From positions 1 through 40,417 of the forward strand of contig JAIEMP010000002.1 in assembly GCA_019752045.1 (NCBI GenBank): 40,417 bases of DNA, in the 5' to 3' direction. This document shows, piece after piece, positions 6,498 to 20,899 of the stretch (the stretch's first letter is position 1; each line of letters starts with the position of its first letter). This stretch comes from Chitinophagaceae bacterium (lineage in GTDB: Bacteria; Bacteroidota; Bacteroidia; Chitinophagales; Chitinophagaceae). Under the pieces are notes generated by a model, which was given only the letters and a program-made list of their open reading frames with translations, searched no databases and was not told the DNA's origin. Position numbers and translations under genes: made by a program.

Positions 6498-7757
6498 ATG
6501 AGTATTAAGCTGCGTCTTACAGTTATGAGTTTTTTACAGTTTTTTGTTTGGGGTGCGTGGTTAATTACCATTGGCACCTATTGTATTAATGCAAAAGGGT
6601 GGACTTTTCCTGAGTTTGGTGCCATCTTTTCTACACTTGCACTCTCTTCTTTATTTATGCCTGCATTAACAGGTATTATTGCCGATAAATGGTTGAATGC
6701 GGAAAAGCTGTATGGTATTCTGCATATTCTTTATGGCGTAGTGCTCTTTTTTGTACCGCAGGTAAACGATCCTGATTTATTTTACTACGTCATCTTTGCT
6801 GCGATGATCTGTTACATGCCTACCATCTCTTTATCTAACTCTATTGCGTATACCATATTAAAAGGTAACAACTACAATGTTGTAAAAGTGTTTCCGCCTA
6901 TTCGTGTATGGGGAACCATTGGATTTATTGCAGCTATGTGGGTGACCAATCTTACAGGAAGCAAGGCCAACGCCAATCAGTTTGTGATTGCTGCCATCTT
7001 TGCCATCCTGCTGGGTATCTATTCTTTTACATTGCCTAAATGTCCGCCGCAAAAAACCATTTCAAAAGATGCATCATTCATTGAGCAATTAGGTTTGAAT
7101 GCATTTAAGTTGTTTGCTAATTATAAGATGGCGTTGTTTTTTATCTTCTCCATGTTTTTGGGTGCGGCTTTGCAGTTGACGAATATGTATGGTGATTCTT
7201 TCATAACTGGATTTGAAGCAAATCCTGCTTATAAAGATTCATTTGTTGTAAAATATTCAACTATCATTTTATCCATTTCGCAGATATCAGAAACACTGTT
7301 TATTCTTGCTATTCCGTTTTTCCTGAAACGTTTTGGTATTAAAAAGGTGATGTTGATTTCGATGTTTGCATGGGTTCTGCGGTTTGGTTTGTTTGCTTAC
7401 GGCGATCCTTCTCTTGCAGGTACTGCATTAATTATTCTTTCCTGTATAGTGTATGGGATGGCGTTCGACTTTTTTAATATCTCTGGTTCATTGTTTGTTG
7501 AAACACAAACCGATGCTGCCATACGGTCAAGTGCACAGGGAATGTTTATGATGATGACCAATGGAGTAGGGGCCTGGCTGGGCAGTAAGGTGAGTGGATA
7601 CGTTATCAATAAATATTACATCAACCCCGATAACAGCAGTAACTGGCACGGCATCTGGATTGCGTTTGCTGTTTATTCGTTGGTAGTAGCCATTGCATTT
7701 GGTTTATTCTTTCGGCATAAGCATGATCCGAAGGCATTGGAAACGGTGCATCATTAA
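6498..7757 (+). CDS. NupG-type nucleoside:H+ symporter (MFS)
   Basis: The 419-residue polytopic protein has about twelve hydrophobic segments and the N-terminal pattern of bacterial nucleoside permeases (SIKLRLTVMSFLQFFVWGAWLITIG). ADKWLNAEKLYGILHI follows the second helix as in the Nuc_H_symport family, and VWGTIGFIAAMW marks mid-protein. It should sit in the inner membrane and import nucleosides with protons. The ATG at 6498 was chosen because family members begin about 10 residues before FLQFFVWGAW; a second ATG lies at 6486 and a longer TTG-started frame adds unlikely residues. The gene is single and divergent from the secreted protease. A strong bidirectional terminator lies at 8017-8047. 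Confidence 0.88.
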   Translation: MSIKLRLTVMSFLQFFVWGAWLITIGTYCINAKGWTFPEFGAIFSTLALSSLFMPALTGIIADKWLNAEKLYGILHILYGVVLFFVPQVNDPDLFYYVIFAAMICYMPTISLSNSIAYTILKGNNYNVVKVFPPIRVWGTIGFIAAMWVTNLTGSKANANQFVIAAIFAILLGIYSFTLPKCPPQKTISKDASFIEQLGLNAFKLFANYKMALFFIFSMFLGAALQLTNMYGDSFITGFEANPAYKDSFVVKYSTIILSISQISETLFILAIPFFLKRFGIKKVMLISMFAWVLRFGLFAYGDPSLAGTALIILSCIVYGMAFDFFNISGSLFVETQTDAAIRSSAQGMFMMMTNGVGAWLGSKVSGYVINKYYINPDNSSNWHGIWIAFAVYSLVVAIAFGLFFRHKHDPKALETVHH

Positions 7758-7763
7758 CAACTA

Positions 7764-7790
7764 CCCCGTCTGACGGCACGTCGGCCGGGG
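7764..7790. repeat. GC-rich hairpin, CGTCTGACG family
   Basis: CCCCGTCTGACG 7764-7775 and CGTCGGCCGGGG 7779-7790 pair along 12 positions as RNA (two G-U pairs) around a GCA loop, 6 nt after the transporter stop. No T-run follows, so it is a weak terminator at best. It shares CGTCTGACG with the palindrome inside tilS (19844-19913), which suggests one dispersed family. Confidence 0.5.
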
Positions 7791-17048: not shown

Positions 17049-17052
17049 ATAA

Positions 17053-17121
17053 TTTGAAAATTTGAAGATTTGAAAATTTGAAGATGAGAGTTTGACAGGT
17101 GGCTAATTTTGAAATTAGCCA
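17053..17121. repeat. 16-bp tandem repeat and 10-bp-arm palindrome in the etfB-etfA spacer
   Basis: TTTGAAAATTTGAAGA occurs twice in exact tandem (17053-17068, 17069-17084). Next to it TGGCTAATTT 17100-17109 and AAATTAGCCA 17112-17121 form a perfect palindrome with a 2-nt centre. The palindrome could be a hairpin in the etfBA mRNA and affect the ratio of the two subunits (inference). Confidence 0.7.
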
Positions 17122-17133
17122 ATTTTCAAATTC

Positions 17134-17877
17134 TCAAATTACTTTAGCTTCTTCATGAAGCCATCTCACCAGCTCTCCCACATTCTCTGCATCTACCAGT
17201 TTAACACCGGCTTTTGCAGGTGGTAGTTCAAATGATGAAACAGAAGTGAGTGCATCAACAGCTATCGGTTCGGCAACTTTCAAAGGTTTGGTGCGTGCAC
17301 CCATGATGCCTTTCATATTCGGAATGCGTTGCTCCGCCATCCCTTTCTGGCAGCTAACTACAACGGGCACACTAACCTCACAGGTTTCTTCACCACCTTC
17401 AATTTCACGGTTGATGGTAGCGGTAGTTCCGTTCAGTTCAAATTTTGTTGCAAGTGAAACATATGGTTGATCAAGCAATTCTGCAACCATGCCACCAATC
17501 GATGATCCATTGTAATCAATGGTTTCTTTACCGGTGAAGATTAAATCATAACCGCCTTGTTTAGCAACCTCAGCAATTTGCGAAGCAATATAAAAACTGT
17601 CGTGACTGTCGGCATTTACACGAATGGCTTCATCACCGCCCAGCGCAAGTGCTTTGCGGATGATGGGCTCTGTATCTGCAGCACCCACCGTAATTAAATG
17701 AATAATTGTTGAAGGATCTTTTTCTTTCAGTTCTATGGCACGAACCAGGGCATACCATTCGTCGTACGGATTGATGATCCATTGCACACCTTCCTGTACA
17801 AACTTTGTGTTGTTATCGGCGAAGGCTATTTTTGCCGTTGTGTCGGGTGTTTTGCTGATGCAAACTAAAATCTTCAT
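17134..17877 (-). CDS. etfB: electron transfer flavoprotein, beta subunit
   Basis: EtfB binds AMP and partners EtfA. The 247-residue protein shows MKILVCISKTPDTTAKIAF, VQWIINPYDEWYALVRAIELKE, the ADP/AMP-binding stretch DLIFTGKETIDYNGSSIGGMVAELLDQPYVS, and CQKGMAEQRIPNMKGIMGARTKPL near the recognition loop. The ATG at 17877 is 49 nt downstream of a very good -7 box. etfA follows. Confidence 0.95.
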   Translation of the reverse strand: MKILVCISKTPDTTAKIAFADNNTKFVQEGVQWIINPYDEWYALVRAIELKEKDPSTIIHLITVGAADTEPIIRKALALGGDEAIRVNADSHDSFYIASQIAEVAKQGGYDLIFTGKETIDYNGSSIGGMVAELLDQPYVSLATKFELNGTTATINREIEGGEETCEVSVPVVVSCQKGMAEQRIPNMKGIMGARTKPLKVAEPIAVDALTSVSSFELPPAKAGVKLVDAENVGELVRWLHEEAKVI

Positions 17878-19507: not shown

Positions 19508-20899
19508 ATGCTACAAAAATTTCAACTTTTCATTTCTAAGCAAAATCTTTTTCCAAAAGATGCATACTTGCTAATTGCCGTAAGCGGCGGCGTGGATAGT
19601 ATTGTATTAACGGATCTTTGTTATAAAGCAGGTTACAAATTCACTATTGCCCATTGTAATTTTCAATTAAGAGGCGGGGAGAGTGATGCAGATGAAATAT
19701 TTGTAAGATCATTAGGAGAGAAGTACAAGGTTGAAGTACTGGTAAAGAAATTTGAAACGGAAGAATATGCTGCAGCAAACAAACTGTCGATCCAGGAGGC
19801 AGCAAGAGCATTGAGGTATACATGGTTTGAAGAACTGATGAATCGTCAGACGCCCTCGTCGGACGAACTAAATGAACGAAGATCTTTATCCCGTCCGACG
19901 AGGGCGTCTGACGTGGCGTGCTTGCTCACCGCCCACCATGCCGACGATAACATCGAAACGCTGCTCATGAATTTCTTTCGTGGTACCGGTTTGCATGGAT
20001 TAACAGGTATTCCTGTTGCCAATGGGCACGTGAAACGTCCATTGCTGTCGTTTACAAAACAAGAGTTGCTGGCTTATGCACAGGAACATCAACTGAAGTT
20101 CAGGGAAGATGCATCAAACCGTTCTTCCAAATACACACGCAATTTTTTTCGTAACGAATTGATTCCTGCTATCAGTAAAGTGTATCCGCAGGTGAATGAA
20201 AATCTGCAGGATAATATCAACCGGTTTAAAGAGATTGAACAACTGTATCAATTATCAACACAAAAGCTCATCCAAAAACTATGTAAGCAAAAAGGAGCAG
20301 AGCTGCATATTCCGGTAAAGCAACTGATGGAGTATAAAAACAGAGCGTTGATTTATGAAATCATTCATCCCTTTGGATTTTCTGAAAAACAGATTGATGA
20401 AGTGCAGAAACTGGCTGACAGTGATTCAGGAAAATACATGGATGCAGCTTCAATGAAGTTTCGCCTTATTAAACACCGGCATTGGTTTATTATTGCTCCT
20501 GTTATTTCTACCGTGGCGCAAACTATTGTGATTGAAAAAAGCAATCAGGAAGTTGACTATGAATCAGGTCAGTTGACTATAGAGAAATTATCAATCAACA
20601 ATCATCAGTTATCAACTTCTCAAACTATTGCAACAATGGATGCATCTAAAATTCAATTTCCGTTGTTGTTACGCAAATACAAACAGGGTGATTATTTCTA
20701 TCCGTTAGGGATGAAAAAGAAAAAGAAAGTCGCCCGTTTCCTGATTGATCAGAAATTATCTAAAACGGATAAAGAAAAAATATGGGTGCTTGAAAGTAAT
20801 CAGCGCATTGTCTGGGTTGTAGGGCAACGCATTGATGATCGTTTTAAAATCACCCCATCAACAAAAGCGGTTCTAAAAATCAATCTTATCTCAGGCTGA
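19508..20899 (+). CDS. tilS: tRNA(Ile)-lysidine synthase, with in-frame palindromic insertion
   Basis: TilS makes lysidine at C34 of tRNA-Ile(CAU), so AUA is read as Ile. The 463-residue protein has the PP-loop SGGVDSIVL (residues 26-34), HCNFQLRGGESDADE, LLTAHHADDNIETLLMNFFRGTGLHGLTGI and, at the C terminus, LLRKYKQGDYFYPLGMKKKKKVARFLIDQKL. Residues about 113-136, between RYTWFEELMN and CLLTAHHADDN, come from a 70-bp palindromic insertion. A second variable stretch (QEVDYESGQLTIEKLSINNHQLSTS) is also built on short repeats. Starts at 19493, 19502 and 19508 are possible; 19508 gives the usual MLQKFQLFI opening. Confidence 0.92.
   Translation: MLQKFQLFISKQNLFPKDAYLLIAVSGGVDSIVLTDLCYKAGYKFTIAHCNFQLRGGESDADEIFVRSLGEKYKVEVLVKKFETEEYAAANKLSIQEAARALRYTWFEELMNRQTPSSDELNERRSLSRPTRASDVACLLTAHHADDNIETLLMNFFRGTGLHGLTGIPVANGHVKRPLLSFTKQELLAYAQEHQLKFREDASNRSSKYTRNFFRNELIPAISKVYPQVNENLQDNINRFKEIEQLYQLSTQKLIQKLCKQKGAELHIPVKQLMEYKNRALIYEIIHPFGFSEKQIDEVQKLADSDSGKYMDAASMKFRLIKHRHWFIIAPVISTVAQTIVIEKSNQEVDYESGQLTIEKLSINNHQLSTSQTIATMDASKIQFPLLLRKYKQGDYFYPLGMKKKKKVARFLIDQKLSKTDKEKIWVLESNQRIVWVVGQRIDDRFKITPSTKAVLKINLISG
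19844..19913. repeat. perfect 22-bp-arm palindromic element inside tilS
   Basis: The arm at 19844-19865 (starts CGTCAGACGCCCTCG) is the exact reverse complement of 19892-19913, with a 26-nt loop. It lies wholly inside the tilS reading frame and adds about 24 residues. The CGTCTGACG core also occurs in the spacer hairpin at 7764-7790. Confidence 0.9.

Follow-up and report, generated by a model that had tools for sequence, protein, structure and literature searches.

Introduction

Rickettsia palindromic elements are in-frame, hairpin-coding inserts in essential genes. A palindrome inside the tilS gene of a Chitinophagaceae bacterium (contig JAIEMP010000002.1, positions 1–40,417; this whole 40,417-nt stretch is termed the window) was likened to them in a first-pass annotation made from the sequence, and the two are indeed comparable in effect: repeat units of this kind lie in frame in tilS, rsmE, prmC and a pxpB-pxpC linker. 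The present family differs from the Rickettsia elements in being mainly extragenic and in being seen in one genus, Lacibacter, of another phylum, with the comparison of sequences limited to the CGTC features given below.

CGTC-tagged REPs (Rickettsia RPE-4/RPE-6 and Neisseria dRS3) are described, in the part of Di Nocera 2013 (PMC3733652) drawn on here, as palindromes with stems of 8–9 bp and loops of 4–5 nt that form mostly head-to-head dimers. An unpaired terminal CGTC tag is followed by a stem starting with A-T pairs, and there is a CCA tail. They lie mostly near stop codons; some are in frame in genes, often as dimers coding for 20–30 residues. The same part of the paper gives them as without a linked transposase and as reported for Bacteroidetes too (PMC3733652). 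As far as that account extends, the Lacibacter unit is alike in its 8–9 bp stem, 4–5 nt loop, head-to-head pairs, intragenic units and lack of a linked transposase. It differs in that CGTC/GACG is the stem itself, with a Watson-Crick outermost pair in 154 of 167 units, and CCA stands directly at the end in 0/167.

REPINs and BIMEs of the GTAG REPs consist of an inverted pair and a spacer that form a long hairpin, and tandem clusters and compensating stem changes are found among them (2011, PMC3116915, in the portion used). The Lacibacter elements share all of these features as given there. In contrast to GTAG REPs so described, a GT[AG]G foot is present in 0/167 units within 6 nt on the 5′ side and in 7/167 within 12 nt, no Y1 (RAYT) gene is seen near the units, and singles outnumber pairs.

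A third comparison is with TnpA-Y1 subclass 2.6 of Bacteroidetes, for which the excerpt used of a 2018 HuH survey (PMC6006769) gives atypical palindromes without GTAG consensus, copies of these elsewhere in the genome, and the signature NH[LIV]H...YIH[QN]NP. One Y1 protein in the window's genome (G000; locus L058, G000:C13:9556-9933) has NHFH...YIHQNP, which is close to this signature as printed in the excerpt, but the palindromes that flank its gene are GGTATGGCATACC and not the Lacibacter unit.

In its arrangement and behaviour the Lacibacter family resembles REPs, above all CGTC REPs and REPINs, and works like them. The defining tags of these groups are absent, and membership in either is not claimed. 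The literature search yielded no paper whose title or abstract describes the Lacibacter unit family.

Results

The palindrome in tilS

The two arms (Table 1) are exact reverse complements of 22 nt each with 26 nt between them. They lie in frame within a 470-aa open reading frame, which is TilS (TIGR02432, 4.7e-49; PF01171 is also matched), and the element codes for residues 120–143, immediately ahead of ACLLTAHHADDN. The perfect 22-bp arms, the 26-nt loop and the in-frame position noted at first pass were all confirmed. A 23-nt arm probe at ≤3 mismatches gives 2 matches in the window (0 expected, 100 shuffles). The predicted fold of the 70-nt element is −47.8 kcal/mol as RNA (z −10.6) and −30.7 kcal/mol as DNA (z −9.9).

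Each arm is one REP-like repeat unit of 22 nt, CGTCNGACG-NCCN-CGTCNGACG. A single arm folds alone, with two stem halves round a central mismatch and a 4-nt loop (−11.1 kcal/mol for the left arm as RNA), and the head-to-head arrangement of two units produces the long perfect tilS hairpin. The A.G form of the unit, as read from the sequence, is without a stop codon in three forward frames. A known structured RNA was rejected for this element: an Rfam covariance-model scan of the 351 nt around it gave 3 microRNA-hairpin matches, all far under the gathering score.

Table 1. Positions of the features discussed (window coordinates, except for the two loci named in the last line)
Feature	Position	Strand	Remarks
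tilS (tRNA-Ile lysidine synthetase) open reading frame, 470 aa	19487..20899	+	TTG start, true start perhaps a few codons downstream; TIGR02432, PF01171
Left unit CGTCAGACGCCCTCGTCGGACG	19844..19865	+	A.G subtype; translated RQTPSSD
Spacer, 26 nt	19866..19891	+	homologous in four species
Right unit	19892..19913	-	left-unit sequence on minus strand; plus-strand reading RPTRASD
Hairpin CCCCGTCTGACG-GCA-CGTCGGCCGGGG	7764..7790	+	3′ of stop at 7757; possible decayed single unit, candidate member
pxpB-pxpC single open reading frame	L150 972-2720; L166 971-2722		two species; separate genes in L118

Distribution of the unit

In the window's genome, 4.16 Mb in 29 contigs, a search at ≤1 mismatch finds 51 units, and a reversed control pattern finds none. 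Units are present in 11 of 14 Lacibacter genomes. A longer exact pattern was found in 6 of 396 genomes of the order, namely in 6 of the 7 Lacibacter members sampled and 0 of 389 others, and a similar exact pattern in 1 of 395 genomes of a phylum sample, this being the window's own and the sole Lacibacter member there; diverged relatives outside Lacibacter would escape both searches, as exact patterns were used. A dimer pattern run over named species genomes gave 6 stretches in three assemblies (Lacibacter cauensis, MAG maxbin.180 and MAG SCNH_8).

As judged from these patterns, the unit family is Lacibacter-specific. The first-pass annotation had proposed a Bacteroidota family of protein-invading palindromes. 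A multi-copy palindrome family with a member in frame in an essential gene is upheld; a phylum-wide family is unsupported, since the exact units are confined to Lacibacter among the genomes sampled. The two outcomes that would have spoken against the proposal as it was made, no other copies in the genome and the same non-palindromic segment in every TilS, did not occur.

Stem pairing

Compensating changes are present in the outer stem pairs. The outermost pair of the 167 units in the fetched loci is C-G in 128, T-A in 17 and G-C in 9, which makes 154 Watson-Crick pairs where shuffles give 111.5. Covariation extends to the next pair outward (117 against 75.3); the copies are related by descent and the shuffles overstate their independence. 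Both pairs are outside of the 20-mer used for finding units. The inner stem pairs hardly vary, a conservation that is partly a product of the 20-mer search. The central pair is Watson-Crick in 10/167, with A.G in 82 and T.T in 49, and these mismatches may represent two founder subtypes.

In 36 orthologous pairs the stems match at 12–16 of 16 positions and the ungapped flanks at 12–40 of 40, where the flank counts are lowered by indels and, if one locus holds a pair, different arms may be compared. The intergenic units were found by similarity, and their stem conservation is biased upward.

Genomic placement and orientation

Unit regions were fetched for all of G000 (≤2 mismatches) and all of G009, G001, G003, G010 and G011 (≤1 mismatch). 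G002 contributed three regions, which hold 4 of its 7 units, and G006 its tilS locus; G004, G005 and G008 were left out. Sorting with a simple codon-usage open reading frame caller gave 125 clusters in 8 genomes.

Outside of the called open reading frames are 103 clusters: 81 between co-directional genes, 13 convergent, 6 divergent and 3 at edges. The family is therefore mainly extragenic, contrary to the protein-invading character proposed for it. The 81 co-directional clusters lie at a median of 23 nt from the upstream stop and 58 nt from the next start, and 64 are single units. These single units follow the direction of the transcript in 56 cases and oppose it in 8 (p 5.6e-10); with one vote per orthologous site the ratio is 33:3, with 2 ties. 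Most clusters are single, and of the two-unit clusters outside open reading frames 20/21 are head-to-head; neither an excision nor a fresh insertion was observed. Of the co-directional clusters 1/81 is followed within 14 nt by a T5 run, thus the units are not ordinary intrinsic terminators.

By eye, the flanks of four loci (L038, L044, L046 and L062) show units directly 3′ of terminator-like hairpins with T-runs.

The other 22 clusters are inside called open reading frames, 11 of them in the first 33 codons, 1 at the C-terminus and 10 truly internal. The 11 early clusters are probably start miscalls; in L131 and L148 the family matches start well downstream. The 10 internal clusters are in tilS of four species, rsmE of three, prmC of one, and the pxpB-pxpC junction of two. 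Apart from the pxp fusion, the internal hosts (tilS, rsmE at L034, prmC at L057) all encode translation-related modifying enzymes, though the cases are few.

Turnover of copies

Orthologous unit loci in G009, the nearest relative, were found for 19 of 33 G000 loci. Two arrays differ in size between these genomes: L036 (3049-3279) has six alternating units in G000 versus four in G009, and L056 (2998-3181) has five versus one. In rsmE a single in-frame unit is present in G009 and in G003, whereas G000 has a pair with one half degenerate. PrmC of G000 has a unit and that of G001 has none. Relatives display empty sites for L049 (in G011 and G003) and L035 (in G009), and the L048 site in G009 holds a decayed relic. 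The exact target site and insertion boundaries were unreadable from the empty sites because the flanks are too diverged.

In G009 (L118), pxpB and pxpC are separate genes with a dimer between them; in G001 and G003 a single open reading frame passes through the dimer (Table 1). Comparison of these reading frames indicates that the dimer is a repeat turned protein linker.

The TilS loop

In solved TilS chains the element's site corresponds to the short connection from a helix to the strand that precedes the conserved His/Asp motif. A structure prediction from three sequences, at a low pLDDT of 43 and used solely for the order of helix, coil and strand, gives a helix at 102–119, a coil, and a strand at 145–148; this order agrees with the alignment to the solved chains.

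The loop is 13–48 residues long (42 parsed of 43 TilS). Tandem 7-nt repeats of at least two periods are found in 14 of the 42 loops, a rate 23 times that of the remaining tilS sequence, and one of these 14 belongs to a carrier of the element, G009. No comparable excess is seen for periods of 4, 5, 6, 9, 10 or 11; period 8 is represented by 2 runs in one gene. The variable length and the 7-nt repeats suggest that this loop is an insertion-tolerant landing place.

Among loci L070-L111 (e.g. in L101, L102, L071 and L105), GGTCAAT, ACTCATC, GCCAATT and other repeats occupy this loop in frame across Chitinophagaceae. The 7-nt repeats translate with a 7-residue period.

Age and conservation of the tilS copy

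The tilS dimer is present at one site in four species (G000, G009, G001 and G006). The other readable members of the genus, including G003, G008, G010 and G011, have tilS without it; carriers are defined by having the dimer, and a genome whose copy had decayed would be scored as lacking it. The G011 loop (L100) has CGTCAGT repeats of ambiguous origin, possibly a decayed copy, and G002 TilS (L106) is broken as read and was left out of the count.

Between the G000/G009 and G006/G001 lineages, the rest of tilS has 68%–69% nucleotide identity and 40%–44% identity at fourfold sites. Inside the element each of the four comparisons affords 9–11 fourfold sites, and none of these sites differs (9/9 to 11/11; 8/8 to 10/10 in the arms alone). 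All arm differences fall at hairpin-loop positions and each alters a residue (Ser-Pro, Arg-Gly, Ala-Thr). Alignment of the 26-nt spacer needs no gaps and gives 14–17 of 26 positions identical between lineages; 0–83 of 20000 shuffles are as good. At the protein level, 11–14 of 14 arm-coded residues and 4–5 of 9 spacer residues are identical; whole-element residues are 67%–75% identical, versus 66%–68% for TilS as a whole. Residues alone do not dismiss a constraint on the peptide, given the conservation of those coded by the arms; the fourfold sites point to the nucleotides.

The carriers fall into two separate pairs on the TilS tree and do not make up one clade (2 changes), so that losses or a second event are needed; one gain followed by losses is a possible history. 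These alignments are taken to mean a single, old insertion in tilS whose stems are kept at the nucleotide level. The perfect arms had been taken at first pass to imply recent insertion or gene conversion. Recent insertion was rejected, because the site and a homologous spacer are common to four species with nearly saturated fourfold sites; gene conversion is kept as a rival explanation and is weighed below.

Search for a mobilising enzyme

Y1 transposase genes are present in 13 of the 14 Lacibacter genomes, with 50 Y1_Tnp match rows, some of which are pieces of one gene. In 23 of the 50 rows the contig is shared with a unit, the nearest being at 6.4 kb and none within 5 kb; in the other 27 there is no unit on the contig, and a contig break could hide linkage. 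The inverted repeats around the eight Y1 loci of G000 are other palindromes. No REPtron linkage was seen in these genomes, and the REP-type transposase that the first-pass annotation suggested looking for was not found near a unit.

G010 has 7 units and zero Y1 matches. Over 14 genomes the Y1 counts and unit counts have a Spearman correlation of 0.73 (p 0.003), a statistic that ignores kinship and assembly quality. It is possible that a trans-acting Y1 enzyme spreads the copies.

A 37-nt repeat at the Y1 locus L068 has, by eye, the string CCCGTCTGAC in common with the unit.

Discussion

The tilS element appears to be a REPIN/BIME-like head-to-head pair of a Lacibacter REP-like hairpin, inserted once in a tolerant loop and held at the nucleotide level. 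A rough probability of two in three is given to this reading. The pair would have reached the tilS loop in a single event that predates the separation of the two carrier lineages, with later losses elsewhere. TilS presumably tolerates it because the pair merely lengthens a helix-strand loop and the A.G unit can be read in each of the three forward frames without a stop. A role of the family as a structured element may be what holds the stems; it would most likely act in the transcript, like REPs behind genes, or else as protein-bound single-stranded DNA. An unlinked trans-acting enzyme would have spread the copies, a Y1/HUH transposase being the leading candidate. A further reading, less likely than not, is that this genus-specific hairpin family, with its central mismatch and its orientation bias to the transcript, is selected as a structured nucleic-acid element recognised by a putative Lacibacter factor. 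Selection would then be strong enough to preserve synonymous positions in stems that lie within an essential gene, with TilS, RsmE and PrmC merely tolerating read-through.

The arms could also be kept alike, without any function, by gene conversion, either from copies elsewhere in the genome or from one arm to the other. There are many near-identical copies, the abundance of subtypes varies between species, and intact units stand at orthologous sites with diverged flanks. However, in G009 and in G001 the left and right arms of the tilS copy differ at loop positions. The tilS copy in G001 is of the A.G subtype, yet the units of that genome are T.T in 25 cases and A.G in 10 (two being the tilS arms themselves), and a decayed copy survives at the L048 site in G009. 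Gene conversion as the cause is thus considered rather unlikely.

Still less probable is selection for the hairpin in its own right, as a structure that regulates tilS mRNA through translation pausing or nuclease control and has no tie to the rest of the family. The stability of the RNA hairpin (−47.8 kcal/mol) and the stems unchanged at fourfold sites speak for such a role, but tilS of G003, G008, G010 and G011, among others of the same genus, does without it, and units outside genes show an orientation bias and a pairing pattern that belong to the family as a whole.

A selfish protein invader like those of Rickettsia, recently inserted in tilS and with perfect arms as a sign of youth, would account for the units read in frame in tilS, rsmE, prmC and the pxpB-pxpC linker and for the stop-free A.G unit. 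It is very improbable with 103/125 clusters outside open reading frame calls, and is contradicted for tilS itself by a copy that four species share, with a homologous spacer and with fourfold sites close to saturation in the surrounding gene. Finally, that the 24 residues are a protein feature needed by TilS in the carrier species is hardly credible despite the reading frame kept in 4/4 carriers and the 11–14 of 14 conserved arm residues, as the loop varies between 13 and 48 aa (42 parsed of 43) and the element's residues are 67%–75% identical against 66%–68% for TilS while its fourfold sites are all identical.

Intragenic REP-like elements are easily taken for recent accidents; the tilS copy is datable by comparison, and it predates most of the synonymous signal around it with its stems still intact. 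The long-standing issue of whether REPs are parasites or functional becomes testable within a coding region, because effects on the amino acids, on the synonymous sites and on hairpin pairing are separable there. The TilS case also presents the loop of an essential enzyme as a landing place for several kinds of repeat.

Other repeats in the window

It was stated at first pass that the core of the tilS palindrome recurs in a second hairpin (Table 1). The CGTCTGACG core is present again, at 7767–7775, in a hairpin just past a stop codon, and this part of the statement stands. Kinship of the hairpin with the unit is doubtful: its loop is 3 nt, and a genus-wide search for its form at ≤2 mismatches gave 4 matches versus 15 for a reversed control. 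A second subfamily is therefore unsupported, and the hairpin is at best one decayed relative of the unit.

Intergenic repeats of the AATTTGA type, with overlapping inverted repeats, are found at positions 17051–17140 of the window.
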